A DNA stretch of 64,000 nt from Mytilus galloprovincialis (Eukaryota > Mollusca > Bivalvia > Mytilida > Mytilidae): contig NC_134847.1 of assembly GCF_965363235.1 (NCBI RefSeq), forward strand, positions 58,932,439 through 58,996,438, read 5' to 3'. Shown here piece after piece: positions 34,801 to 52,929 of the stretch; position 1 is the stretch's first letter, and the number at the start of each line of letters is the position of its first letter. Both the position numbers and the translations under genes were made by a program. Below the pieces are notes generated by a model. That model was not told the origin of the DNA and searched no databases. It saw only the letters and a program-made list of their open reading frames with translations.

Positions 34801-37800
34801 GTTTATTTAAATAAATGTACATGACAATGTAAATTTGTGCTTACAATGTAATTACTTCTCAAAATAATAATAATTTGGGTTGACATTAAATCATTATTAA
34901 AACACTGAGTAAAACCAATAAGTTACAATGATATGTAGCTGACCAAGAACATATATGGAAAATAAAAACAAATAATATGTATGAAGTTTTTTATAGTGAT
35001 CAATTCACATGGCAGGACACATTTCCATTATATATGTATTAAACCCTAAATGGTTTGAAGTCTTAGACACATTGCTGACTCTACAGATGTGTATTTTACA
35101 ATGGCTTATAATGTTGGTGGATCTGAAGCAGAAGTTACAATTCCCGCCACAGATTGAAGTAACAAACCAGAGACCTGACATCGTCATTTGGTCCACCTCA
35201 ACAAAACAGTCAATCCTGCTGGAACTAACTGTGTCATGGGAAGAAAGAATAGAAGATGCCAACGAAAGAAAGAGATTGAAGTACCAAGACCTACTTGCAG
35301 AATGTAGAGACAATGGATGGAGGGTTTGGTTATTTCCAGTGGAAGAGGGAAGCAGAGGGTTTGTTGGAAAGTCTATGTGGCGAGCACTTGGTATTGTTGG
35401 AGGGGAAAGAAGTAAGCTGATTGGTAACTTGTGTAAAGAGGCAGAGACAGCATAAATGTGGTTATGGAGAAAAAGGTCAGAACAGTGGAAGCAGTAAAGT
35501 GTAGAGGCAGGGATGGATAGCCATGTTGTTTCGGGCTGGGACTTGATCACCCCAGTCGGCGCACCTCTGGAGATTGTAGTGGACAGCGCCGAAACAAGCT
35601 AAGGAAGGAGGATTCACCTGAAGACGGAACCATGCATCTTTCCAACAGGATGCATTAAGGTAATTCATACTGATCAGGTGTAAACATAAACTATTCTTAC
35701 CATTGGGAGAACTCTCTGCTTATAATCTTCATACTGATCAAGTGTAAACATAAACTATTCTTACCATTGGGAGAACTCTCTGCTTATAATCTTCATACTG
35801 ATCAGGTGTAAACATAAACTATTCTTACCATTGGGAGAACTCTCTGCTTATAATCTTCATACTGATCAGGTGTAAACATAAACTATTCTTACCATTGGGA
35901 GAACTCTCTGCTTATAATCTTCATACTGATCAGGTGTAAACATAAACTATTCTTACCATTGGGAGAACTCTCTGCTTATAATCTTCATACTGATCAGGTG
36001 TAAACATAAACTATTCTTACCATTGGGAGAACTCTCTGCTTATAATCTTCATACTGATCAGGTGTAAACATAAACTATTCTTACCATTGGAAGAACTCTC
36101 TTCTTATAATCTTCATACTGATCAGGTGTAAACATAACCCCTCCATCATCATCACCCACAATTCTAAATAAAACATGGAGGATATTTTATTAATTTTGAC
36201 TACATAACAGGTAATCTTCAAAATAAATTCAATCAATATCTTTTAAAGATTAAAAAAAGATTTGTGACTACTAGTCTTGTTGCATTATATTAGACTCAAG
36301 CTATTCAGATGCTTTTGTTTTTTTGTTCACAATATTTCTTAACAAAGATATTTTTAGGTTATATCATTTGAACCCTGTTTTTTGCCTTTCACTAGCTTTT
36401 TATTGTTTGATGTGTATTTAAATCGTAGGACACAATATACAATGTAGGGTCAATGTCAGAAAAATATAAACTTTTTTGTATGAGTCCCAGAAACTGGGGA
36501 AGGGAGAGGTTTTATAGAGCATGTGCAAAATACATAAGAGATTATATTTTTCTGACATTGAACTAATATTGTTTTTATACTGCTACTTTTAATTATTACA
36601 TTGATAGCTATTCAAATTGTAACACAAATTCTTAATTTTTTTTTTTTTTTTATAGAAGCTGATTTAATTTGGAAAATCAATACATTTACAAAAAATACAA
36701 AAAGACATACTTTGAACATATAATTACATTCCAATATATTTATTAATCATAGTTTTGTTTTTTTTAAAGTTTTTTTAGTCTCTATCATTTAATATTATTT
36801 GTGTAATGACATCATACAGATTCCATTCAAAACACAACATCATAATATATGACATAACATGAATGTTATATAACCCATCAATCAAGTCAAAAGTACAGGC
36901 ATTTTCATGCATGTCTGCAATTTTAATGCCCTGGTGTCTTTTTCATAATCTTAATCATGTGCCAAAATATTTTAGAGCCTTTTGTTTTTTTTGGTTTTTT
37001 TTAACGATAACAAATATTTTATTCAATCATTTCCTGATATATAAATACCTAAGTAGCCCAGGTTGCATACTTAGGGACAAATTCTTAACTTACTTTCCTC
37101 ACTTCATGAACCCCTGATTGTGGAAAAGGGTGTTCACTGATGAAATTGATATTGTACAAAAATCTAGTTGTGTTACTATATTTATGGAATAAACACAACT
37201 TGTTGCAGTAAAATTATTATGGATAGTCAACCATTCCATCACAGGCACTTGTCTCAGAATTTTTTTTATTATATAACTTTATAATAAGGGGACGAAGTCT
37301 CCTATTATACAGTAGAAAAATTTAAAAAAAAAAAAAAAGTCGGGAAATTTTCCTTGTACTAATGAACTCAAAATCGTTAACTTATTTTTGTCACTTTTTT
37401 TAATTCCCGCATTTGCGCAGAAATCTACTTCCTTTATCGAGTCTCGTTGTCAGGAGACTTACTCAACGGATATATTTATCAGTCTGGTAAAATATAAGAA
37501 GGAACAAAATACCAAATTCATTTTTAATAATTCTTTGATATTAAAAAACATTACCTGATGATAGCGTTTCTTAGTTTACAATGAATATGACGTCATAACA
37601 TAAATAACGTCACAACTAAAATCCCTAACAACAGAACCAAAATCGTAACATTACAGTATTGCCGTGTTTTTTAAACCATTTTGAAGTGTTTTTTTAACCC
37701 TGTATGCTAACATTGCCCATGTGAAATTTTAAAATTGTTTGTATAAACACTGAACGACAAAAATATGTGACGTATAAAATTTTCTGAAGCATATATATAT

Positions 37801-39753: not shown

Positions 39754-42555
39754 TTAGGTTATTTGAAGTAGCGAAGCTCTTCTTTGATGTAGTCTATAAC
39801 AATAACCTCTAGATACACATTCAATATTAGAGATGTTGGATTCGTCTAGGAATTCAAAGGATGAACAGTCAATAATAACTTTGAGTTGTAAGTCTTCTGA
39901 TGATAATATTTCATTATACACTTCCATATCAACACAGTCATATAACTTTACTAGTATAATATTTAGGAAATGTTCCTGTATGTCTCTCAATTTTTCACAA
40001 TATAGAAGGAAATGTTTAATGTCCTCACTTCCTTTGCCACATAATTTACATGCTGAATTAGTTCCACCAGATCTGTCGAACTTAGCTCTGTCATGCTGTA
40101 AGGTATAAGTTCCACACATGATTTTTGCTTTTATGCTGGCCATAGTTGAAGTAAACGGCTCTGTTCCACAGCTATCCCAGACATTGTGGGTTTTTCCTTG
40201 AGTGATATTATTGACATTTAAAAACTTTAGAGATGACTTTGATTTTACATCAGATTTTAGAAGATCAATCCAATACGAAGAGATAGATTTTCTTACAATA
40301 TTTTTCCACTCGATTTTCCCCGGAGGCACATTAATAAGATCATGTGGTGATGGTAAGCCATACTGTTCTGTTAAGTCAATAATTTTGACAAACCAACTAT
40401 TTGAATCCCTTGGCATTACAGCCAGTTGTCTTATAGCAACATCACGCTCGACAGAACCATGGTTTCTGATGATATTACCGAAAAAATTCAGCATACGCTT
40501 ATGCAATTCAGCCTCAACTGGAATTTGACCGAGAAGTAAGTAGACAGCACTAGTGGAAGTGCGCTCTGGCAAATGCTGGATCTGCTTTAAAAGCTTGGTG
40601 TAATATACGGAGAGTAATTTCATATCGGAGACAGAAAGTATTATGGAGTCTAATCCATACAAAAGTCTGGGTAGCACATAAATTTTCACCAGGTGCATAG
40701 AGACTTTAGGGTTAAGTCCATTCAAACCATGGAGCCCAGCTCCCATGAGGGCATACACTGTTTTCCTAGCTGTCTGAATTCTATTAGGTACACAATCTTT
40801 CACACCATATTTAGAATTGACATCATGATCTATACCAAGATGAGTCGCTTTAGCAGAATTTTGAAGCGGTTGACCATTCAGTGTAAATAAATGTTCAGTT
40901 TTACTTCCATATTGTAGAGTACATGACTTCTGGCTACTAATTATGTAGCGATGTTTATTTGCATAATCAGACAAGACATTTAACATTGTTTGCATCTCAT
41001 ACGGGTTGTTGGAAATCAGGGTAACATCGTCGGCAACAGTGGGTACTCCACAGTAAATAGAACCCAAGTGAGCACCAAGACCATTCATTTCAAATGTTTT
41101 CAGTAGTGTGTTTATGAAGACCTTATAGGCAGTCGGGGACCAAACTCCACCCTGGCGAACACCCTGGAATTCGTGAACTGGTTTTGATTTGATACTTTGC
41201 CACATTACAGAGGACTCCAAGTTCTTATACCACTCATTGAATAATAACCAATTGTCACCGGTCATTCCACCTTTATACATCTCTCTCATTAGCCCAGAGT
41301 GCCACACAATATCAAAAGCTTTTTGAGCATCACTAAACGTTATAATTAATTGTTTTTTTAATTTCTTAGCTTCAGCCTTGAGTTCAGTTAAGATTAATGC
41401 TGCTACCGAAGGACATTCCCCAACTGTGAAGCCTTTTTGCAACCGACTTTGTTTATCTTTAATAATGTTCACATTTTTTGATAGATGAAGTTTTTCCACA
41501 ACTTTTCCAATAGTACTTGTTACGGTAATTTTACGATAAGAGTTAGGCATTTCTCTAGGTTTGCCCCCGTTTTTGAATACTGGATAACATATACCACTTT
41601 TTAAATTAGATGGGAGGTTAATATGTTGAAATATAAAGTTTACTAATTTCACTATAATTTTAATAACAGGTTGACCACCATATTTTAAATGTTCAATGGT
41701 AATACCTTGTTCATCAGCTGCTTTTCCATTTTTGAAAGACATTATACACTTTCCCACATCATCCTCAGATAAAAATTCTAGGGGTTCTTTATTAGTGTTA
41801 AAAAGATCCTGTAGTATTTTTACATCATCTTCGACCAATTGTTTATAGCTGTTATCAAAAAATTCATTATCAAAAGGGGTAGACAGCTCTTGAAAATAGT
41901 CAGCCCATGTTTCACAAATGGCTATAGAGTCACTAAAAATCTTGTCATTATATCTAAGAACAGATGTTGATATATAGTTTTGGTCCCGTTGGCGTTTGAT
42001 AAGTTTATAAAATTGTTTTTGATCAGTTTCACGAAGTTCCATTATATTGATAAGGTTGTCTTGACGTTTAGATGCTTCAAGCTGTCGCTGAGCAGACCTG
42101 AGATCTTTTTTCGTTTGTTTCAATTCATTAAAATATTTGTTATCTTTGCTTTTTGGTTGACCAGCTTGTTTCCATTTCCAAAAACAATGTTTCTCTTTCC
42201 TAATAATATCCACAATATGTGGAGGCCAAACTCTGCCTTTCCTACGAGTACGTGATCCAGAATTTTGTTTAGATGGGACAAGCTCCCTGGCTGTGTCAGT
42301 AACAATTTCACACAGATTATCTATAAAATTATCAAGCGATTCCAAATCTAAATTTTGGAGTTCAGAGTCTAGTTTATGGCTCAATTTTCTTTCATATTCA
42401 TTAGTGTCAATTTTATTCCAGTCAATTTTCCGCACACACTTGTTATCTGAGTTAGTCGACTCATCAATAGACTTTTCCATTGGAACAGTTATAGTAATTG
42501 GATCATGTGTAGAGGTGTTACACAGCTCTCTTGTCAGTACGTTATAGGATGTCAC
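39754..42555 (-). CDS. Reverse transcriptase part of LINE 1
   Basis: A long open frame with no ATG at its start; it continues from the endonuclease through a frameshift, so the first residues are the end of the EEP domain. RT blocks in order: GKAADEQGITIEHLKYGG; SYRKITVTSTIGKV; SDAQKAFDIVWH (palm A, catalytic Asp); GVRQGGVWSPTAYKVFINTL (B); and VPTVADDVTLIS (C) with VADD at about residues 507-510. A connection/thumb region follows, then a C-terminal C-x2-C-x(8)-H-x4-C zinc-like motif (CKLCGKGSEDIKHFLLYC). The RT frame itself is intact to its TAA, but the upstream domain is not in frame with it. Confidence 0.85.
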   Translation of the reverse strand: MTSYNVLTRELCNTSTHDPITITVPMEKSIDESTNSDNKCVRKIDWNKIDTNEYERKLSHKLDSELQNLDLESLDNFIDNLCEIVTDTARELVPSKQNSGSRTRRKGRVWPPHIVDIIRKEKHCFWKWKQAGQPKSKDNKYFNELKQTKKDLRSAQRQLEASKRQDNLINIMELRETDQKQFYKLIKRQRDQNYISTSVLRYNDKIFSDSIAICETWADYFQELSTPFDNEFFDNSYKQLVEDDVKILQDLFNTNKEPLEFLSEDDVGKCIMSFKNGKAADEQGITIEHLKYGGQPVIKIIVKLVNFIFQHINLPSNLKSGICYPVFKNGGKPREMPNSYRKITVTSTIGKVVEKLHLSKNVNIIKDKQSRLQKGFTVGECPSVAALILTELKAEAKKLKKQLIITFSDAQKAFDIVWHSGLMREMYKGGMTGDNWLLFNEWYKNLESSVMWQSIKSKPVHEFQGVRQGGVWSPTAYKVFINTLLKTFEMNGLGAHLGSIYCGVPTVADDVTLISNNPYEMQTMLNVLSDYANKHRYIISSQKSCTLQYGSKTEHLFTLNGQPLQNSAKATHLGIDHDVNSKYGVKDCVPNRIQTARKTVYALMGAGLHGLNGLNPKVSMHLVKIYVLPRLLYGLDSIILSVSDMKLLSVYYTKLLKQIQHLPERTSTSAVYLLLGQIPVEAELHKRMLNFFGNIIRNHGSVERDVAIRQLAVMPRDSNSWFVKIIDLTEQYGLPSPHDLINVPPGKIEWKNIVRKSISSYWIDLLKSDVKSKSSLKFLNVNNITQGKTHNVWDSCGTEPFTSTMASIKAKIMCGTYTLQHDRAKFDRSGGTNSACKLCGKGSEDIKHFLLYCEKLRDIQEHFLNIILVKLYDCVDMEVYNEILSSEDLQLKVIIDCSSFEFLDESNISNIECVSRGYCYRLHQRRASLLQIT

Positions 42556-43290
42556 AATATCAGTATTAAGAATAAAGTAATCAATTTGTGAAGAGTCTTT
42601 CCCATTAAAATGAAAAAAGTATCTTGTTCTTTACAAAGTTTAGGTAAAGAGAGATTATGTTCATTGGCAAATAGTTTAAAGTCAATATCTCTAGTGTTAC
42701 TACTGTTACGATGAAACGAGGCGTTCATATCTCCTCCAAGAATAATTGTATATGAGTCATTATATTTTTGAATAATTTCCGAGAGTTCATCCAATATCGC
42801 TTGGTAGTCATCACGGGAATATCCATTTCCTCTTGTTGGAAGGTATACACATAACAGAAGTATTGGTTTTGCTAGTTTTATTAAAACCCCAATAATTCTG
42901 TTTCCACCATCCGGAATTTCTTTAATAATTGTTGTGCAATGTTTTTCTATACATAATTGAAACACCAGCATGACCCCGACTTCTTTGAATAGGAATATCG
43001 AATTTATCATCATCAAAGCATTTAGTATATGAATTAAAAAGGTTAAAATCATCATGAATTCTATATTTATCTCTAGAATGCAGCCAATGCTCTTGAAGCA
43101 TAATAATGTCAAAATGTTCACTAAGATTTTGAAGATATACATTGTTGCTTAAAAATCCTTCAATGTTAAAAGATAAAATACGTAAACTATCTACACCATC
43201 AGCTTCATCTAACAAGTCCTGACCTGACCTAGACTTATCTCTTCCCAGTCGGAGGGGTGCATGCACGGGGTGCTCGGATAAGATTGACAC
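42552..43290 (-). pseudogene. EEP endonuclease part of LINE 1, split by two frameshifts
   Basis: The domain begins SLRILSFNIEGF and IMLQEHWLHS (catalytic Glu) in one frame to about 42922. It passes to a second frame with KEIPDGGNR, VYLPTRGNG and GGDMNASF (the GDMN site), and then to a third carrying SQIDYFIL and the end. The shifts lie near 42930 and near the A/T run at about 42605. The terminal SDH motif reads STH, losing the usual Asp. The endonuclease is therefore dead in this copy, if the assembly is right. Confidence 0.8.
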
Positions 43291-44252
43291 ACCTTTCGCT
43301 GTTGGTTTATCATTTCCCTGTTCGGTTGTGTATTTGCACAGATCGGCACTTTTGGAGATAATGTTATATTTTGTACAGACTTTTTCCTGCCTCTTGGGCG
43401 ATTGCGCATGTCTAAAAAAGTACTATCGATACTACCTGAAGTTGCCTTTTCAGGGGTTTGCATTAAATAATTATCCATTTCATTTTCAAGGGGATCATTT
43501 ATTATTACAACAGATTCATCCCGTCTGGCTGGCGTACAGAAATCATTATAATTATCATTGCAAAAATTGTGTAGAGAACTATTTTCCACATTTTCAGTTA
43601 TGTCAGATGGCATATTATTAGCCTGTTTATGTGTTCTATGGCGATTGTTATTGTTGTTACCATTGCGCTTTCGTCTACCCCTTTGTTTCTCAGGGTTATG
43701 TTTGTTGTATATATGATGAATATGCATTTCATTAACTTTATCTTGTACGTTTGCCATTTTATTATCTTGCTTGATTATATCAAATTCAAGAGTCTTAATT
43801 CTTTGTTCCAAAACCCAGACTTTTATGGAATCTTGCTCGGCACTATGATGACAATGAGATTGAACATTGTGTTTTTGTGAATTTTTAACTGATGGATAAT
43901 CCTCATTTTGGGATAATTCATTGGCAAGCTTCTGCTTATGTATACGGAGAGAATGCTCTAAGTCTAATTTATCACTTTCTAGAGTTATAATATATGACCT
44001 ACTAGTAGTTAATTCTTTTTGTAGGCTAGAAATATCAGTTTGTAACTTATAAATTGTGGAGTCTTTAGCTCTTAATAACTTTTCTTTCTTACACAGGCAA
44101 TCTTTAAGATGCGCAATTTCTTGTTCATAAAAATATCTTTTACCAGTGTCATCAGGGTTGTTTGTACTTTTTCCAATTTCAGAATGTGCATCTGGAACAT
44201 GTGGAATATTCAGTTCATTTGGTACTACTCTTATGTCATGAATATCACCCAA
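43209..44252 (-). CDS. LINE 1 ORF1: coiled-coil, basic nucleocapsid-like protein
   Basis: The frame has no ATG near its 5' end: the first residue at 44252 is a TTG codon. The frame is open up to a TAG near 44305. An upstream in-phase-looking segment lies in another frame across an A8 run, so the true N-terminus was probably lost to an indel. Residues 40-130 form heptad-rich coiled coil. A basic stretch (RGRRKRNGNNNNN) follows and could bind RNA. No PHD finger or RRM was seen. Near its end, at 43419-43413, lies an in-phase T TTT TTA heptamer from which the -1 frame runs openly into the endonuclease. Confidence 0.7.
   Translation of the reverse strand: MGDIHDIRVVPNELNIPHVPDAHSEIGKSTNNPDDTGKRYFYEQEIAHLKDCLCKKEKLLRAKDSTIYKLQTDISSLQKELTTSRSYIITLESDKLDLEHSLRIHKQKLANELSQNEDYPSVKNSQKHNVQSHCHHSAEQDSIKVWVLEQRIKTLEFDIIKQDNKMANVQDKVNEMHIHHIYNKHNPEKQRGRRKRNGNNNNNRHRTHKQANNMPSDITENVENSSLHNFCNDNYNDFCTPARRDESVVIINDPLENEMDNYLMQTPEKATSGSIDSTFLDMRNRPRGRKKSVQNITLSPKVPICANTQPNREMINQQRKVCQSYPSTPCMHPSDWEEISLGQVRTC
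43413..43419 (-). promoter_or_regulatory. Candidate -1 ribosomal frameshift site of LINE 1
   Basis: Minus strand reads T TTT TTA with ORF1 codons ACT TTT TTA. The -1 frame has a TAG one codon upstream of the heptamer and is then open without interruption through SLRILSFNIEGF of the endonuclease. No strong downstream stem was evident by eye, only a small GCC..GGC pairing. Confidence 0.6.
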
Positions 44253-44499
44253 GTTAGTTGATACAATTGACCTTTGTTTAGAGACGCTAGGTTTTTTTTG
44301 GTTGGATTTCTACCCGTTGTTTTACTACATTAATAGGCGATTGATTGACACCATAAGGTGTTCCGAATGGACGTTGTATAGCAGAACGAAGTTTTTGCAC
44401 AGATCACAGATCCAAATACGGAGAGTTTATAAGTCTTTATTTGCACTTGTTTCCTCACAATTTAATCTTATAGGTCACTATACCTTGTTTAGATAATTA

Positions 44500-44927
44500 T
44501 TTGAGGCATTTTTGTATATTGCACGGTGTTTTGAACCAATCTATTTTGCTGGCCTTGCCGGACGGCCATCAAAATTTTCAGCGCCATTTTTGAATTCTAA
44601 AATTTTGATAAATAATTTTTATTTTTCATACAGTAAGTCTAAGTATTTCTGTGACTTATAAATAATTAGAATAAATAAATTCATACTTTTGGTTAATAAT
44701 TTTGATCAACTAAATAAATTTTTCTATACCAATAGTTGACTTTAAAATATTTGACCATATATAGTCTTTTGTTTAGACCCCTTCCCCTTTTATTTTCCAA
44801 ATAATTTTTTTACTGCATAGATAAATAGTTAAATTTAACCTTTAAACACACTGTACTTGTGTTTCAACTAATATCCTGTGTTGGACTGATAGAAAACCTA
44901 GTATTCTGTTCCTCAAAAGATTGATAC
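44500..44927. other. Head-to-head junction of the two LINEs
   Basis: AT-rich; should contain the 5' untranslated ends of both elements. A short GGCCTTGCCGGACGGCC hairpin lies near 44552. No ORF is supported. Confidence 0.45.
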
Positions 44928-45674
44928 ATGTCTGAGAATAAAATTATAAAGTCAAGCAGATACTTCAGAGTAAATAAGAGAGATATTCAGGATAAAACAG
45001 CCCAAAGCCAACCCATTATTATATCTGATAGTAAAGGAAACTACACAAAGAGAGCTATAACAACTGAAGATTTCCTAAACATAAAATTCATCACCAAAAA
45101 AGGACAAAAAGTACAGCAAGCTATTGATTGGGCCGAAAAAGAATTACCATCAATCTGTCATCAACACAAAAACATCACATTTTATATTTGGCTAGGAACT
45201 TGTAATTTAACTGAACTTAACAGAACTACCAGATACATCTCTCTTGTGAACCAAAACGACTCAAACGTCAGATATCTAAGAAGAAAATTCATCGAACTTA
45301 AGGAACTCATCACTAAAATAAAACCAAAATCAAAAATCATCTTCTTAGAAATACCGCCATACTCTATTCAGCGTTGGAACAGATCTCAAGGCCACAAAAA
45401 CCCGGACATTTTCAGTGAAGACGACCAAACACTTCAAAACCAGTTATACCTTTTAAATACCTTCATCCAAGAAATAAATCAATCAGCAGAAAAATCACCA
45501 AAATTTGATCTTGACATTCGAAAAACATCTAAAAGAAAAGGCGGTACTGACGAATACTACAACTTTAATCTATACAGAACTGACGGCGTACATCCAAATT
45601 TATTACTAGCAAAGCTCTGGATGAGAAGAATAGCAACCAAAATTCTCCATCAATGTTATAGATCTATAGAGTAG
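44928..45674 (+). CDS. LINE 2 ORF1: SGNH/GDSL esterase-like protein
   Basis: 248 residues from an ATG. Block I is IIISDSKGNY with the nucleophile candidate Ser35 (SDS in place of GDS). Block III is WLGTCN at residues 88-93 (G-x-N). Block V is DGVHPN with Asp219 and His222. These are the SGNH hydrolase catalytic positions in order, at a length typical of a single domain. Such esterase domains are found in ORF1 of CR1-like retrotransposons, where they may act on lipids or membranes. The ORF is intact. No signal peptide or membrane segment was seen. Confidence 0.75.
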   Translation: MSENKIIKSSRYFRVNKRDIQDKTAQSQPIIISDSKGNYTKRAITTEDFLNIKFITKKGQKVQQAIDWAEKELPSICHQHKNITFYIWLGTCNLTELNRTTRYISLVNQNDSNVRYLRRKFIELKELITKIKPKSKIIFLEIPPYSIQRWNRSQGHKNPDIFSEDDQTLQNQLYLLNTFIQEINQSAEKSPKFDLDIRKTSKRKGGTDEYYNFNLYRTDGVHPNLLLAKLWMRRIATKILHQCYRSIE

Positions 45675-45887
45675 AATAGTATACTATATATATATAAACT
45701 TTATACCAACCATATTTATCCATTCCATATACAATAACATTCATATATAGAAATATTAACATCTTTTATATAACATTAGTCTATATTGTATAACCTGCAA
45801 ATATAGAGATATATATCTACATACTCATTAAACCCTGATATCGGAAGATATAAAAGTTAACTGGAAAATTCTAATCAAAGCTAGCTT

Positions 45888-45908
45888 TCAGTGGGGACGC
45901 CCCGCTGA
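45888..45908 (+). promoter_or_regulatory. GC-rich hairpin, copy 1
   Basis: A 9-bp stem with the triloop ACG: TCAGTGGGG pairs with CCCCGCTGA, including one G-T pair. It lies 63 nt upstream of the ORF2 ATG in very AT-rich DNA. Its core AGTGGGGACGCCCCGCTG is identical to an 18-nt word at 48300-48317. Confidence 0.6.
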
Positions 45909-45971
45909 TTGCACATTAGCCTACATAGAACTTCCTTGCTAAAAGAAAACAACAATGTCTAAAGTGAAAAA

Positions 45972-47537
45972 ATGAGTATCCAGACTAGAACATCAGCAAG
46001 AACCAAGAGCAAACCTCAGCCCTATACACCAGCTAAATATGAAAACTTTAGTATGAATAAAACCAGGGCCTTGGACAAAAAACTAGAAGCATGTAATAGA
46101 GCAATGGACATAAAAATTGAGCAGAAACATCAAAACTACATCCTAGAGCTATCAGCAGCTGCTTATGAAGTTTTAAAAGGGGAAATAGACATATACTTTG
46201 AACAACACTCTACTTACAAGCTCTTGCCCAAACACCAGCATGATAATCAAGGGCTATGCATCAGAACTTCACATTCGGTCAGAAATAGAAGTAATAACAG
46301 ACAACTCTATCGTATCAATCTATTCCATACTACATCAAAGGTAGAGGTTAATGGCCAAGGTATGGAACTCTTCCTGACACACATTGAAGATATAAAAGAA
46401 AGAATGAAATCAAGAGGAAACTATAAGATTTACAACAAACAGATAGAGGAACAGATAAACATAATCAAGAGAAATGAAGCTGATATAGAAATAAGTGGAA
46501 AACAGGATGAATCACTTGCAACAAATAATCAACCTAAAACCAACCACATAAATAGAATACTTGTATTCAAAGGGGCAGAATGTATACAAAATACAGACAA
46601 AGAATTATTAAGTAACTGGAATAGAGCCATTGAATGGTCAGAAGATGAACCAACACCCAGTCAGGACACAAGTGCAGTCAACATGTCTACTATACATAAC
46701 TACTGCGCCATATGTAATCAGACAGCACAACCAGAAACATCCATAGATTGTATTGCATGCAGTCAACTGTTTCATTATACATGTGAAAACATTGATCCTG
46801 TAAGGATAAGCCAAACTGAAGAAGAACAATATTCATGTAGGAGTTGCTCTATTATGGACATGGACGTGGTAAATATATCAATGAGAAGCAATAACTCAAT
46901 TATAGATACAGAAGAAACAATACCAAAAGTACTTCTAGAAGAACAAGACTCGACAGAGGATTATAGCGAAATAGGCCATATAGTTAAAAATATGCCAGAC
47001 AATACATCTAAAGACAGTCCAACTAGAACACAGATCACGGAAGAAGAAACAGGAAATTCTAACACAGAAGTACTAGACATGCTAGAAATGAACAAAACGG
47101 CTTCATACAAACAGCATAACCAAATGGTACAGAACAGCAGGAATGTACAAATAGAAAATGTAGATGAGCCAAAAAACATCAAGGCAAAACCGAAAAGGCA
47201 ATATAAGTGCAAAAATATAAATGAAACTACTCAACAGCTTGAAGATCAATTAGCACAATGCAGAGCAAGACTAGTCATAATGGAAGATACCAATAGAGAC
47301 TATAGAAATACAATCAATCTACTTAGGATGCAATCAGAAGAAAGCACTATTGACAAAAGTAACTTAAAAACCTACCAGCCAAATTGTGGCTGTAGCAACA
47401 ATTCGCAGGAACAGACTATAAACAAAGTCGATATGATGCTGAACAACTTCCGACTAGAAATGGAAAATAGAGACCTAAGAATAAAACATCAAATGGAGAT
47501 GAATGAATTAAGACACAAACTGCAAATAATGGAATGA
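45972..47537 (+). CDS. LINE 2 ORF2: PHD finger and coiled-coil protein
   Basis: 521 residues from ATG. A complete C4HC3 PHD finger spans about residues 245-292: CAIC, then CIAC, FHYTC and CRSC at PHD spacing. PHD fingers read histone tails in chromatin proteins and occur in ORF1 of CR1-like elements. Heptad-rich coiled coil lies about residues 415-460 (TQQLEDQLAQCRARL) and at the C-terminus (LRIKHQMEMNELRHKLQIM), suggesting oligomerisation. The reading frame is the same as ORF3 downstream; only two TGA codons (47535 and 47556) separate them. Confidence 0.82.
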   Translation: MSIQTRTSARTKSKPQPYTPAKYENFSMNKTRALDKKLEACNRAMDIKIEQKHQNYILELSAAAYEVLKGEIDIYFEQHSTYKLLPKHQHDNQGLCIRTSHSVRNRSNNRQLYRINLFHTTSKVEVNGQGMELFLTHIEDIKERMKSRGNYKIYNKQIEEQINIIKRNEADIEISGKQDESLATNNQPKTNHINRILVFKGAECIQNTDKELLSNWNRAIEWSEDEPTPSQDTSAVNMSTIHNYCAICNQTAQPETSIDCIACSQLFHYTCENIDPVRISQTEEEQYSCRSCSIMDMDVVNISMRSNNSIIDTEETIPKVLLEEQDSTEDYSEIGHIVKNMPDNTSKDSPTRTQITEEETGNSNTEVLDMLEMNKTASYKQHNQMVQNSRNVQIENVDEPKNIKAKPKRQYKCKNINETTQQLEDQLAQCRARLVIMEDTNRDYRNTINLLRMQSEESTIDKSNLKTYQPNCGCSNNSQEQTINKVDMMLNNFRLEMENRDLRIKHQMEMNELRHKLQIME

Positions 47538-47600
47538 CAGAAAGAAGTAAGAATGTGACAAAGACCAGGAAGTCATGAATATTATCCTTATAATCAGAAT

Positions 47601-48500
47601 ATGGACAATACTAGGAACTCAAACCAACACCAAATGAGTGATCAGCATACTGGTGTACAGCTTATAAACCAGCAATCCAGGATTCCTAACCAAGCCAATC
47701 CACCATTCATGACACCTATGGCACCTCAACACTATAGCCAAATACCAACAGAGCAGAGCAGAATAAATCCTGGCCATATTCAAGCGCCAATGTACCACAA
47801 TAGCAGAATACAGGCTATACCTGTAAATAGTCAAAGTAGCCACCATTACCCTGGCCATAGAAGTATACATGTACCAACTGGCAGTATCAACACTAACATG
47901 ATACAAAATGCACATTTATACAGACAACAATATAGGATGACTGCACAACCTATACCACAAAATATAAATCACCACCAAGGATATAGTCAACAACAGACAA
48001 GCAGAAAGGAACAAAGTCAAAGAAACATCAATAAAAGATTTTATGACCAAAGAACAAGCATGCCAGTTATAGCTAAACAAAGTCATGCAGAAGAAATTGA
48101 AAGACAAAAACAATTGCAACAGCTAACAAATCAGGCTGATAATATTAACCAAATAGACAAAGAACCAACAGAAGAAGCTAGACTGACCATCAATCTGACA
48201 AATTCAGCTGCCGCAAAAAATGATGAAGTCAAAGCACATACAGAAGTAAGCCATCAAGTAGATGTCACGCCCAGAACTGGTCTTATAACAACGGCTTCTA
48301 GTGGGGACGCCCCGCTGGAAGCGGTCTGCCATCAGAAGTTCCCCTCTCAAAGGGGGGCCAATGTTGGTGGTCCTAAGCATCTAAAGGGACTAGTTCAGGC
48401 TGACAATCTAGAAGCAAAAGAAGATGGGAATAGAAAGAAACCAAATCATTTTTTAGGCAGCGGTCGATCAAACAAGATAAAAGGGAGGATATCATTATAG
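47601..48500 (+). CDS. LINE 2 ORF3: Q/N/H-rich protein, 0-frame of the frameshift
   Basis: 299 residues from an ATG. The first 160 are rich in Gln, Asn, His, Tyr and Pro with QQ, HH and YSQ runs, as in low-complexity RNA-binding or condensate-forming proteins. The second part is more charged (EARLTINLTNSAAA). No domain was recognised. It ends at TAG 48498-48500, overlapping the open -1 frame of ORF4 by 67 nt. A GC hairpin and the T TTT TTA heptamer lie inside its last 70 codons. It may be the C-terminal half of ORF2 rather than a separate gene (see ORF2). Confidence 0.65.
   Translation: MDNTRNSNQHQMSDQHTGVQLINQQSRIPNQANPPFMTPMAPQHYSQIPTEQSRINPGHIQAPMYHNSRIQAIPVNSQSSHHYPGHRSIHVPTGSINTNMIQNAHLYRQQYRMTAQPIPQNINHHQGYSQQQTSRKEQSQRNINKRFYDQRTSMPVIAKQSHAEEIERQKQLQQLTNQADNINQIDKEPTEEARLTINLTNSAAAKNDEVKAHTEVSHQVDVTPRTGLITTASSGDAPLEAVCHQKFPSQRGANVGGPKHLKGLVQADNLEAKEDGNRKKPNHFLGSGRSNKIKGRISL
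48294..48322 (+). promoter_or_regulatory. GC-rich hairpin, copy 2
   Basis: A 13-bp stem with triloop ACG: GCTTCTAGTGGGG pairs with CCCCGCTGGAAGC, including two G-T pairs. It shares the 18-nt core with copy 1, and its flanks differ but still pair. It sits 126 nt upstream of the T TTT TTA site inside ORF3. A second small hairpin (CCCCTCTCAAAGGGG) follows near 48341. Confidence 0.6.
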
Positions 48501-51334
48501 GTACACTCAATGTACAAAATGTGAAATCAAACGCCCTCTATATCAAAAACTTGTTAAGGGATGTACATGTGTTATGCATTCAAGAACACTGGCTTTTTAA
48601 TGCGGAAAAGAAAATCATAGCTGAAATTACTGAAAATAGCGGATACATAGCTAAAAGTGTTGATGATAATGACGACCCAGATTTCAACGTATCAATGAAA
48701 AGGGGATATGGTGGAGTAGCCATAATCTGGAAAAAAGAAATTAATGAAAATATAAAGGAACAGATAGACGGTGGAAATAGAATACAAGCCATACATATTC
48801 AACAAGGAGACAAACCAATATGTCTTATAAATGTATATATGCCATCAGATAGCAAAAATGCAGACATCGAATACAAAGACACATTGGCTCAAATTGATGA
48901 AATGATAGAGAAATATAAAGACACACACGAAATTATAGTATGTGGAGACATGAACGGGTCACTTGATAGAAGCTCGACACCTCATGATAAAATCCTAAAG
49001 ACATTCTGCAAGGAAAAATGTATAGGAAATACTGAGAAATGCCCAGTAAAAGAGACATTTTATCACCAGAATGGTATGTCGAAAGGACAAATTGATTACT
49101 TCCTCTTCAAAAGTAACTCAGAAATCATTAACAAAATCAGACAAATTCATGTCCTTGATACTGACCCAGAGAATACCTCGGACCATGTACCTGTTATCTT
49201 GACACTGAATAGTCAACTGAAAAAAGTCAGGGAAAAAGCAACAACTATCATAGCAAAACCTAAATGGACTGACTGCGACCATCAAATTTATAAGGAAGTC
49301 ATCAATAAAGATCTACCAAAACTCATGCAAAAATCAAAAGGAATCATTGAGCAAGATATAAGAAATCTAGAAAAATTGCTACATAAAGCCGGAGAAGCAG
49401 CAATCCCAAAGTATAGAAGAAAAATCAAAATCAAATCAAAGGGAAAGGCGATATGGAACGAACAAATAGATAAGGCATCAAAGCAATCAAAAAATGCATA
49501 TAAAGTATGGAGGCAACATGGAGCACTTCAAGAAGGAAGTAATGAGCTCAAAATCAAAATGACAGCTGCAAAGAGAATACTTCGAAAAGCACAAAGACAA
49601 GCCTATGCCTCGCAGAGAGAATCAACAGCGGGAAAAATTATGAAAGCTTCAAGTGCAGATACAAAACTTTTTTACAAGCTTATCAACATGCAAAGAAAAA
49701 CACCACTTACTAATACCAAGATACTGAAACTAAATGAAAAGACTGCAGAAGATGGACCAAGCATAATGAACATCTGGCAAGAACATTTCCAACAACTAGC
49801 TACACCAACAATAGAGGAAAATTTTGACACTGACAAATTAGAGCTAGTAGAAATACAAAACAATATAATAGAATCCATAGAAAGGGAAAAAGGTCAAGGC
49901 ATAGAACTTGTTAATGTAAAGGAAGTAAATAAAGCTATAGAAAAACTTAAAGCAGGAAAAGCACCCGATGAAGATGGAATTTCGGCAGAACACTACAAAC
50001 ATGGGATGGAAGAGTTAACTCCCTTTATAGTACATCTGCTAAATTTAATCTTAACATATTTGGATGTACCAATCTTCCTAAAGACAGGGATTCTAACACC
50101 AATCCTAAAGAAAGAAAAAGACAAAACATTACCATCTAGCTACAGAGGAATAACTGTAACTAAAACCTTTGCAAAAATATTACAAAGTATATTGAAGGAT
50201 AGAGTTGACTCTGTATTTAACAACATACAAAACTCCCTGCAAAGAGGCTTTACAGAAGGAGTATCATCACTATGTGCAGCATTCCTCACATCAGAAGCAA
50301 TCGAAGAAAGTAAGAAATTAAAGATACTGCTGATCTTAATAACTCTTGATGCAGAAAAGGCATTTGACAAGCTAAACCATGAAATACTATTCAACAAACT
50401 GTACCATTATGGAATAAAAGGAAAACTCTGGATATTACTGAGAAACTTGTATAAAGGAATGAGCATTAAGGTTAAATGGGAAGGGCAATGTACAGAAGAT
50501 GTAATGGTGCTACAAGGAATTCAACAAGGTGCAAAACTATCTACAACGCTATATAAATGCTACAACAACGTCATACTAGATAGCATATTAAAAAGTGGAC
50601 TTGGAGCATGTATTGGTGATATACAAGTCCCTGCGCCAACATGTGCCGATGACATTGCTGTTCTGGCAAATAGTACTGCAGATGCGCAAGGAATATTAGA
50701 CATAGTGCAACACCATACAAGCAGAGATCTAGTCAAAATCAATCCAACTAAATCTGAAGCTGTTCTATACAATGCAAAAGGCTCAAACATATCAACATTG
50801 CAATTTGAAGACAATGACATCAATATAACCAATGAAACCAAACATCTAGGTATCAAAAGAAACGAGCAAAACCGTGCAAATATCTCAGAAAGAATAAGAA
50901 CCGGTAGGGCAACAATATACAGCCTTCTTGGAGCTGGGTTACATGTCAGAAGGGGATTCTCACCAATGGTCGCATACAAGCTATGGAGAACATATGCAGT
51001 ACCAAGAAGCATATACGGACTTGAGGTGATGAACCTACTTGCAAAAGAAAAGGATATGCTAGAACTGGCAGAGAGAAAAATCCTCCGACAAATTCAAGGG
51101 CTTCCAAATAATACAGCAAATATGGCTGTCTATACCCTGGTAGGAGCAGAACCTATTGCCATCACATTAGACAAAAATGTACTTACCTTCTTCATGAATA
51201 TTGTTCGAAATTCAGGAACCATAGAATGTGAAATTCTGCGCCGACAAATAGCATTTTCAGACCTAAGAGGAAAAGACTTTATCAACAGAGTAGAAAAAAG
51301 AAAAAACTCTATCAAAATACAATTTGAAATCTAG
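48434..51334 (+). CDS. LINE 2 ORF4: EEP endonuclease and reverse transcriptase
   Basis: The frame is open from 48434 with no usable ATG; translation probably enters from ORF3. EEP motifs: GTLNVQNVKSN, CIQEHW (catalytic Glu), GGVAIIWK, CGDMNGSL (GDMN), GQIDYFLF and TSDHVPV (SDH), all intact. RT blocks: AGKAPDEDGISAEHYKHG, SYRGITVTKTFAKIL, QRGFTEG, LDAEKAFDKLNHEIL (A), GIQQGAKLSTTLYK (B) and APTCADDIAVLA (C), with CADD at about residues 708-711 counted from the GTG at 48521. The C-terminal zinc-like part lies in the next piece after TAG 51332 and TAA 51362. Confidence 0.88.
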   Translation, partial: KETKSFFRQRSIKQDKREDIIIGTLNVQNVKSNALYIKNLLRDVHVLCIQEHWLFNAEKKIIAEITENSGYIAKSVDDNDDPDFNVSMKRGYGGVAIIWKKEINENIKEQIDGGNRIQAIHIQQGDKPICLINVYMPSDSKNADIEYKDTLAQIDEMIEKYKDTHEIIVCGDMNGSLDRSSTPHDKILKTFCKEKCIGNTEKCPVKETFYHQNGMSKGQIDYFLFKSNSEIINKIRQIHVLDTDPENTSDHVPVILTLNSQLKKVREKATTIIAKPKWTDCDHQIYKEVINKDLPKLMQKSKGIIEQDIRNLEKLLHKAGEAAIPKYRRKIKIKSKGKAIWNEQIDKASKQSKNAYKVWRQHGALQEGSNELKIKMTAAKRILRKAQRQAYASQRESTAGKIMKASSADTKLFYKLINMQRKTPLTNTKILKLNEKTAEDGPSIMNIWQEHFQQLATPTIEENFDTDKLELVEIQNNIIESIEREKGQGIELVNVKEVNKAIEKLKAGKAPDEDGISAEHYKHGMEELTPFIVHLLNLILTYLDVPIFLKTGILTPILKKEKDKTLPSSYRGITVTKTFAKILQSILKDRVDSVFNNIQNSLQRGFTEGVSSLCAAFLTSEAIEESKKLKILLILITLDAEKAFDKLNHEILFNKLYHYGIKGKLWILLRNLYKGMSIKVKWEGQCTEDVMVLQGIQQGAKLSTTLYKCYNNVILDSILKSGLGACIGDIQVPAPTCADDIAVLANSTADAQGILDIVQHHTSRDLVKINPTKSEAVLYNAKGSNISTLQFEDNDINITNETKHLGIKRNEQNRANISERIRTGRATIYSLLGAGLHVRRGFSPMVAYKLWRTYAVPRSIYGLEVMNLLAKEKDMLELAERKILRQIQGLPNNTANMAVYTLVGAEPIAITLDKNVLTFFMNIVRNSGTIECEILRRQIAFSDLRGKDFINRVEKRKNSIKIQFEI
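48449..48455 (+). promoter_or_regulatory. Candidate -1 ribosomal frameshift site of LINE 2
   Basis: Reads T TTT TTA with ORF3 codons CAT TTT TTA, the X XXY YYZ arrangement. The -1 frame is closed by TAG at 48431-48433 and open from 48434 through the endonuclease start (IIIGTLNVQNVKSN). ORF4 has no ATG before its conserved endonuclease start, so entry from ORF3 by -1 slippage is the simplest route. No obvious strong stem follows within 10 nt. Confidence 0.65.
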
Positions 51335-51370
51335 CAGCTACTACATAGAAAATCCACTGAATAAAATCGA

Positions 51371-51934
51371 ATGGAAAAGACTAGTAGAATAAAGATCAAG
51401 GAATACTGGAAAAATGAATGTCATAATGAAAAAATGGAAAAAACATCACTTAAATACATAGAGATACAGAACAATCCATTAAATGAAGCTCACAATATAT
51501 GGAAAAGTGTAAAAAACAATAGTAAAGATGTAAAGGCAGGAGAAATAAAAGCAAGAATAAGTACTCAAACGTACATATTCCAAGCCAAACGAGCTAAGTT
51601 CGATCCGAAAGTTAACCCGATGTGTACAATCTGTGAACAGGGAAATGAAGATCTAGAACATTTTATTCTACACTGCAAAGAATTAGAGCAAATAAGATCT
51701 AAATACTGCTCAAAAATTGAACTGACAATGGATGAAATTGATACCTCAACATACAAGAAGATCATACAACAAGGGAATTTACTGCAGCTCATAATGGACT
51801 GTACTAGCAAAGACATAAACTGTTACTCAACTGTGTATGAAAGCATTGAAACTCTGGCTAGAAATATGTGTTATGAGATGCACTTGCTGCGCACAAAAAG
51901 GATAAAAAACTTGATCACAAGTACAGTATAAGCA
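51371..51934 (+). pseudogene. C-terminal part of LINE 2 ORF4, split off by a local frame excursion
   Basis: In the same frame as ORF4, with a motif CTICEQGNEDLEHFILHC (C-x2-C..H-x4-C) and the RAKFDPK block shared with LINE 1. Between 51310 and 51390 the +1 frame, not this one, carries the homologous SYYIENPLNKIEWKRLVE. Two compensating single-base indels near the A6 runs at about 51295-51310 and near 51388 therefore explain the stops. A sequencing or assembly homopolymer error is as likely as a true lesion. Confidence 0.7.
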
Positions 51935-52929
51935 AACTTTTTAAAATAAAACAGTTCATTACTAATAGTATATCATCTTACTATTTTATGACTTATAAGT
52001 ACATGTATTTAAAATAAATCTTCTCTTTTTAAAATTGTAAGATATCAGTTATAATTTAAAGAATAATGACAAGATCCCCATATAGTAAAATAAACTGTGA
52101 AGAAAATTTATGTATATATATTAGCTCAAATTTTTCCAAACCCCTACCATTTTACATAAGTCTTATAAAATATAATTTTCATTATAGTTCCTGATGTATT
52201 TATAGCACTCTTAACTAATAATTATAAGTAATTTTAATTTGAGACCATTTTAATTCTTATTTGTAAATATATGCAGTTGTCTCTTAAAATTTTCTTACAA
52301 CCCAGCACATATGAATTATTATATATCTTTTAAAACTTTATGATGACAATCCATTGAATTAATTATGATATTTATCATTTAATGATTATTATAACCAAAT
52401 TCAGTCATCTGTATATAATTATTTGTTTCCTTATGTTTTAAGGTGTACATAGTTGCTAAAACTATACCCTTTGGGTAGTGCTCCACAATTAATGGAGGAA
52501 TATACAAGAAACTGAACTGAACTGCTAACCAAGTATGAAGTCATTCTATTACATAATACCTGAGGGAAACATAACAGAAATATTAATTGAAGGGACTGAC
52601 AAATCTAAAAAAAGAACTGAAAAGTGAATTCATTATAGCGCCACTCTAGTGAAAGAATAGGATGTTAAAGCAGTTTCACACAAAGAAGATGCAAATGTGT
52701 CATCAAAAGCAAACTATGAAGATGTCATTTAATTTTTGCATGTTAAGCTTGAATGAAATGATTAAATTATGAGATACAGCTGAACATATGATCACATATG
52801 TTCATATGCTAATTTCCTATAAAGTAATATAAACAGAAATAAAGTTAGTTTCAAGATTTATCTTCTGCTAATGAGAAACATGAATCATCATGATGTCCAG
52901 TACATGAGCTTATGAAATAACAAGAGTGC

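Follow-up and report, generated by a model that had tools for sequence, protein, structure and literature searches.

How does a long interspersed nuclear element (LINE) translate a second open reading frame (ORF) that has no start codon of its own? The translation of LINE second ORFs is an old open question, usually credited to unconventional initiation in the portions available to us of two earlier papers (PMC2881922, PMC5009743), and it is raised here by a head-to-head pair of LINEs in the mussel Mytilus galloprovincialis. The pair lies within a stretch of 64,000 nucleotides (contig NC_134847.1, positions 58,932,439 to 58,996,438; hereafter the window, whose own numbering is used throughout), with LINE1 on the minus strand and LINE2 on the plus strand. 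In both, the frame for the endonuclease-reverse transcriptase (EN-RT; ORF2) lies at -1 relative to the upstream frame (0 frame; ORF1) and opens without an ATG, and both carry the heptamer T TTT TTA in phase with the upstream ORF. From these features, the first-pass annotation of the window had proposed programmed -1 ribosomal frameshifting. The genome comparison described below supports that proposal, and a large clade of mussel LINEs very probably makes its EN-RT in this manner, as an ORF1-ORF2 fusion.

The analysis of the two junctions confirmed the coordinates, phase and frames of the initial description. In LINE1 the heptamer occupies 43413..43419 (minus strand), the junction reads ...AGT ACT TTT TTA GAC..., and a 0-frame ORF at 44309-43209(-) is followed by a -1 ORF at 43422-42922(-); a stop in the -1 frame stands two codons before the heptamer, leaving one open codon between them, and the 0 frame ends 69 codons past it. 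In LINE2 the heptamer is at 48449..48455 (plus strand), the junction reads ...AAT CAT TTT TTA GGC..., the 0-frame ORF ends at 48500 (16 codons past the heptamer), and the -1 ORF spans 48434-51334, with its preceding stop six codons before the heptamer and five open codons between. The first ATG of the -1 frame is found only 106 (LINE1) or 82 (LINE2) codons past the heptamer, within the endonuclease domain, which in LINE1 begins near 43180. As a bare word TTTTTTA is frequent in the window (107 matches against 86 expected). Codon shuffling of both ORFs gives a probability per codon for the in-phase T TTT TTA of 1.2e-4 (LINE1) and 3.4e-5 (LINE2), and each ORF tested (44309-43209; 47559-48500) holds a single such site, at the start of the -1 frame.

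The two window copies were nevertheless unable to settle the matter, because both are decayed, a point that the first-pass annotation had missed. The endonuclease of LINE1 contains two additional frame breaks and is thereby spread over three frames where the database protein P0066 is continuous, and LINE2 has in-frame TGAs at 47535 and 47556 in ORF1 and, as read, frame breaks near 51335 and 51400. Since both copies are decayed and the M. edulis protein models P0001 and P0012 imply a run of seven Ts, each copy might have lost one T, and it was a survey of the genome that settled the question.

This survey covered the window's own genome (1.385 Gb) and yielded 66 other junctions, or 68 with the two in the window. 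All 27 non-window matches of a LINE2-type search that start within the first 16 query residues were taken, together with 39 of the 150 matches of a second search, whose other 111 matches, partly the same places as those of the first search, were left unread. Of the 39, the first 20 were selected before being read, with a view to long open frames, diversity and LINE1 copies; the last 19 were selected with those 20 already read, again for diversity and in part as likely relatives of the exceptions L070 and L067, and cannot be taken as blind. To be counted, a site needed a 0 frame that stays open over 20 or more codons ahead of it or as far back as the stretch was read, a rule that excluded L088 (in-phase T TTT TTA with 12 open codons only), and clusters were defined at 70% nucleotide identity by single linkage. 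On these terms the in-phase heptamer was found at 56 of 68 junctions (54 of 66 outside the window), distributed as 26/27 in the first search, 2/2 in the window, 16/20 and 12/19, and in 21 of the 27 clusters. It recurs in the LINE1-type copies L052-L054 and the decayed L055, and in 14 of the 15 other genomic copies of the LINE2 cluster; the sole miss among the 27, L034, has five Ts. The possibility that many copies would lack the heptamer was thus not borne out, copies with intact ORFs included. From the heptamer, ORF2 is open at -1 into the endonuclease, overlapping the 0-frame ORF, at 53 of the 56 sites. The remaining three are L041, whose frames are joined by one additional A further downstream (the related L046 keeps a clean -1 offset), and the decayed L055 and L081, with stops or a frame change. 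A blind sample of 21 genomic stretches, each of 10 kb, gave three weak matches resembling reverse transcriptase and no junction. Relatives were absent from viral contigs and plasmid collections, and bacterial genome contigs yielded two (L001, L002), neither with a readable junction. Both of these are filed under Bathymodiolus gill symbionts and carry LINE DNA, most likely as host contamination.

Across 22 representatives the seven heptamer columns are invariant (22/22) and the flanks vary widely: a G comes next in 20/22, and no other column between -12 and +23 exceeds 17/22. When six families are compared in pairs, they share 25-62% of positions outside the site, and 11 of 120 columns are invariant, eight of which are TTTTTTAG. 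The T run is exactly six in 56/56 sites, with no preceding T in any. These families are deeply diverged, with an EN-RT identity to LINE2 of 44-47% for families B-D and 39-40% for family E, and about 30% identity between LINE1 and LINE2 copies over the start of the endonuclease. Nor do the heptamer codons follow a habit of ORF1, since in one intact ORF1 TTT serves 3 of 10 Phe, TTA 12 of 45 Leu, and T stands in the third position of 211 of 843 codons. The heptamer is conserved at the nucleotide level beyond its surroundings.

This observation is further strengthened by copies with intact frames. Three other copies have an uninterrupted ORF2 of 1163 amino acids, matching residues 1-959 of the LINE2 ORF2 at 97-98%, and all three keep the run of six Ts and the -1 offset; L051 together with L025 provides an uninterrupted ORF1 of 843 amino acids that ends 16 codons past the heptamer, as well as a 5' ORF of 246 amino acids. 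Because the intact copies show them so, the TGAs of the window copy are to be read as decay and the six Ts with the -1 offset as the intact state, and the shared heptamer is therefore not a product of decay in two old copies. Over the 400 bases read, L025, L026 and L032 are identical on three different chromosomes, which indicates that the LINE2 family has moved recently.

The point of entry into ORF2 is narrowly bounded. In 56/56 sites a stop closes the -1 frame 1-17 codons before the heptamer, and in L056, L059, L069 and L072 (and relatives) this stop lies immediately next to it, so entry is possible only close to the heptamer. At 43 of the 53 open sites no ATG precedes the endonuclease in the -1 frame, and in these ATG-free families ORF2 can be entered only around the heptamer, barring a non-AUG start. 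The proposed absence of a conserved ORF2 ATG accordingly holds for most families and fails for some: the ten ATG-bearing sites comprise L054, whose ATG is not shared by the other LINE1-type copies, and, in six clusters, every open member (L056-L058, L063/L082, L068, L072, L080 and L087).

Several observations weigh against frameshifting. In those six of the 21 heptamer clusters, a -1 ATG precedes the endonuclease in all open members. Three clusters with an ORF1 lack T TTT TTA altogether (L070/L083/L084/L086; L073/L076; L077). P0001 and P0012, M. edulis models that belong to the LINE2 family, read ...KKPNHFFRQ..., which requires a seventh T, and P0143 reads CLD instead of FLD at the site and was counted as a miss. 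Finally, the 22 representatives share no stable downstream structure by nested folding against shuffles (mean z 0.11 for +12..+62 and -0.05 for +12..+82). A stimulatory RNA structure a few nucleotides downstream of a -1 shift site is usual, though not universal. The window sites gave folding z values from -1.68 to 0.42 in one test, and a modest signal over +10..+100 is particular to LINE2 (z -2.73 in the window copy, -1.97 in L025) and is not seen in other families. The heptamer may act alone at a low rate that a LINE can tolerate, or the stimulator may be a pseudoknot or long-range pairing of a kind that lies outside nested folding.

The clusters without the site differ in what they carry instead. 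In L070, L083, L084 and L086 the site reads T TTT CTA, at which the second tRNA would be unable to re-pair, and an ORF2-frame ATG stands a few codons upstream in 4/4. In L077, which lacks an ATG, the in-phase heptamer is C CCT TTT and likewise fits the X XXY YYZ pattern; L076 is devoid of both a pattern-fitting heptamer and an ATG, and L073 has no such heptamer and three ATGs in a longer open frame. The other three of the six site-less clusters (L060, L065 and L088) consist of one locus each, with no clear ORF1 in the sequence that was read, and L060, L065 and L067, which have no site, appear to be 5'-truncated. In L072 and L080 the heptamer is kept and followed by T, with the AG lost, and in L080 an ORF2-frame ATG overlaps the end of the heptamer (TTTTTTATG).

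Database proteins offer an independent view of the offset. The 0-frame/ORF2 protein pairs P0180/P0039, P0190/P0192 and P0148/P0081 are best explained as encoded by one DNA at a -1 offset, with 0, 2 and 0 violations against shuffle minima of 4-7, 4-7 and 1-4 (n = 100, 100 and 60). Among 71 proteins with the endonuclease motif, found with a loose pattern so that a few are not true hits, 19 start inside the first strand of the endonuclease, the behaviour expected of gene finders where ORF2 has no upstream ATG. Judged from proteins alone, the case seemed weaker than it really is, since long fused frames are what gene finders retain. The M. edulis models P0001, P0010, P0011, P0012 and P0192 appear to fuse LINE ORFs through an implied seventh T or predicted introns, and fused mussel gene models of this kind are a trap for judging frames from proteins. 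As for the prospect of both ORFs standing in one frame, L041 alone is fused among the 56 genomic sites, and a fusion through seven Ts, implied by the P0001 and P0012 models, is seen at none of them.

These models lend themselves to two further explanations of the junction. One takes the two frames as artefactual, with active elements having a single ORF and seven Ts and the six-T copies having lost a base, and it can point to database proteins in which both ORFs are fused (P0001, P0012, P0038, P0039 and P0141). The three copies with a 1163-residue ORF2 have six Ts and the -1 offset, the one of them with upstream sequence read has the uninterrupted 843-residue ORF1, the genomic relatives of P0141 (L061, L062) are at -1, and in P0039 the -1 fit begins upstream of the site, which would place the fusing change there. 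We give this explanation next to no credence. The other is that RNA polymerase slips on the six Ts and produces some transcripts with seven Us, in which ORF1 and ORF2 share a frame; the seven-T genomic copies implied by P0001 and P0012 are what reverse-transcribed slipped RNA would leave behind. Six Ts are short for polymerase slippage, though, a seventh T occurs in 0/56 in-phase sites, and the run is always exactly six followed by A, a precision that slippage would not need, so that the chance of this explanation is small.

The constancy of the base after the heptamer suggests a third origin, in which TTTTTTAG is a conserved 3' splice site and a spliced RNA, joined at UUUUUUAG, would connect upstream coding sequence to ORF2 with no frameshift needed. 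G follows the heptamer in 54/56 sites, and the M. edulis model P0192 seems to be joined at TTTTTTAG. Against this, two families keep the heptamer without the AG (L072, TTTTTTATACC; L080, TTTTTTATGCC), and the L070 family keeps the pyrimidine-AG (CCTTTTCTAG) and loses the heptamer, having an ATG instead; the loss of either AG or heptamer without the other disfavours a splice acceptor. The joins in the models moreover seem to differ by copy (P0192, P0137, P0148 and P0180), as they would from predictors bridging two frames, and overall we hold splicing to be highly improbable. A similarly low standing is given to initiation of ORF2 by reinitiation or internal entry at an AUG or near-cognate codon, with the heptamer as a coding relic. 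Such initiation is suggested for L1 and SART1 in the accessible part of one paper (PMC2881922), and it gains from the six clusters with an ATG ahead of the endonuclease and from near-cognate codons in both window copies. The ORF2 AUG that the reinitiation model would place near the ORF1 stop is absent from LINE1 and LINE2, which leaves room for non-AUG starts; the first -1 ATG in both is inside the endonuclease, 43 of the 53 open sites have no ATG ahead of it, and the model offers no reason why seven bases should be invariant where the -1 frame opens.

Programmed -1 frameshifting would account for that invariance in the following manner. Ribosomes would translate ORF1, which encodes a PHD finger and a coiled coil where these are seen, and a minority would slip back by one base at U UUU UUA, shortly before the ORF1 stop, with the tRNAs on UUU and UUA re-pairing with UUU and UUU. 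The slipped ribosomes would continue at -1 and produce an ORF1-EN-RT fusion, and those that do not slip would stop 9-128 codons later and release the ORF1 protein. The heptamer, its phase, the -1 geometry, the lack of an AUG in most families and the conservation across deeply diverged families are seen directly in the sequences; from these we infer that a shift takes place, how often it does so, that a fusion protein results and that retrotransposition makes use of it.

The architecture of the two elements is in keeping with their assignment as LINEs. LINE2 begins with an extra 5' ORF that is weakly SGNH/GDSL-like (44928..45674, plus strand; Lipase_GDSL E=0.038, under the curated cut-off), and a 246-residue version of it also stands 5' of ORF1 in copy L051; in the text available of an ORF1 survey, esterase ORF1s are reported only in two exclusively vertebrate groups (PMC4120745). 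The LINE2 ORF1 (45963..48500, plus strand) has a PHD finger (1.8e-5, above cut-off) and a coiled coil, and its ORF2 (48434..51334, plus strand) has an APE-like endonuclease followed by a reverse transcriptase in one ORF (Exo_endo_phos 5e-12, RVT_1 1.6e-24). A C-terminal zinc-finger part (51365..51931, plus strand; zf-RVT 1.3e-4, under the curated cut-off) is split off by frame breaks in the window copy, and in other copies the ORF2 frame continues through it to 1163 amino acids. A short run of GAACT repeats follows at about 52505-52525 (plus strand) and may be the 3' end of LINE2.

In LINE1, all on the minus strand, the upstream ORF (43209..44309) corresponds to the coiled-coil part, to which P0148 aligns at 44126-43719 and P0141 at 44153-43755 by tblastn; no Pfam domain above cut-off and no PHD part was seen there, and LINE1 is probably a 5'-truncated element. 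Its -1 frame starts the EN-RT ORF (42922..43422; Exo_endo_phos 2.9e-5 at 24.4 bits, cut-off 24.5), and the remainder, past the two frame breaks, extends over 39754..42630 (RVT_1 2.5e-22). Over their aligned portions, the LINE proteins of the window share 95-99% identity with proteins of M. edulis and M. galloprovincialis, and in the PDB a profile (A1) hits human L1 ORF2p at 1.3e-54. Pfam on ORF2 gave the endonuclease, the reverse transcriptase and a weak zinc finger and no protease or integrase; long terminal repeats were not searched for. Elsewhere in the window, an open frame at 35000-35455 (plus strand) gives the impression of resembling the C-terminal part of a retroelement-linked protein (RPDIVIWS...LTVSWEERIEDANERK).

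The closest parallel to the junction is found in a retrovirus. In human immunodeficiency virus (HIV), an upstream ORF is followed by a reverse transcriptase ORF at -1 without an AUG of its own, and a G follows the heptamer. HIV-1 gag-pol and the mussel LINEs have U UUU UUA in common, which a recoding review, as far as its text was available, names as the HIV shift site (PMC5009743). Unlike HIV-1, the mussel elements are LINEs with an APE endonuclease and reverse transcriptase, in which no protease or integrase domain and no shared downstream structure were found, and their product would be fused to a PHD-finger protein. For non-LTR elements, the same portion of the review mentions frameshifting in HeT-A and also TART and mammalian LINEs (PMC5009743). 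In the Dictyostelium elements TRE5-A and TRE3-A, an APE-RT-zinc-finger ORF2 like that of the mussel LINEs is said to need a -1 frameshift following ORF1; the host is another one, the accessible text names no heptamer or conservation across families, and the likeness rests on ORF2 (PMC5911963). A -1 frameshift in LINEs has therefore already been proposed, and the mussel case adds a variant in which the heptamer is kept across families.

Other LINEs point in different directions. SART1 and human L1 are two-ORF LINEs like the mussel elements, and their ORF2 translation is said to depend on that of ORF1 in the part of the source at hand (PMC2881922); LINE1 and LINE2, in contrast, have no ORF2-frame AUG before the endonuclease and have a conserved shift site. 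For Paramecium LINEs, +1 frameshifting, reinitiation or read-through are suggested in the available text (PMC5405496). LINEs of the CR1/L2 lineage have a PHD finger in ORF1 as mussel LINE2 does, a likeness that goes by the PHD finger alone and not by a reverse transcriptase phylogeny (PMC4120745, available text). The word "frameshift" does not occur in the available texts of a bivalve LINE survey (PMC10294476) or of the ORF1 survey (PMC4120745), and a search of titles and the beginnings of abstracts, with subscription papers mostly outside it, returned no description of such a site in animal LINEs.

A broader form of the proposal, to which we assign even chances, is that an entire ancient clade of animal LINEs operates on a retrovirus-like Gag-Pol logic, making EN-RT only as a -1 fusion to a PHD-finger, chromatin-reading ORF1 at an invariant U UUU UUA, with no local RNA stimulator in common. 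A reader of histone marks and a DNA-cutting enzyme would then be covalently joined, which would couple chromatin targeting to insertion, and the family without the slippery site, which has an ORF2 AUG, would represent a natural switch of mechanism. If frameshifting is indeed in use, the ORF2 protein would be fused to the ORF1 protein, and the dose of EN-RT would be set by the shift rate. Mussel gene catalogues, with models that fuse or bridge the two frames, would in that case mis-describe these elements. One animal genome, with one shift site common to 21 sequence clusters and several natural losses that may serve as controls, thus offers a testable answer to how the second ORF of a LINE is translated.

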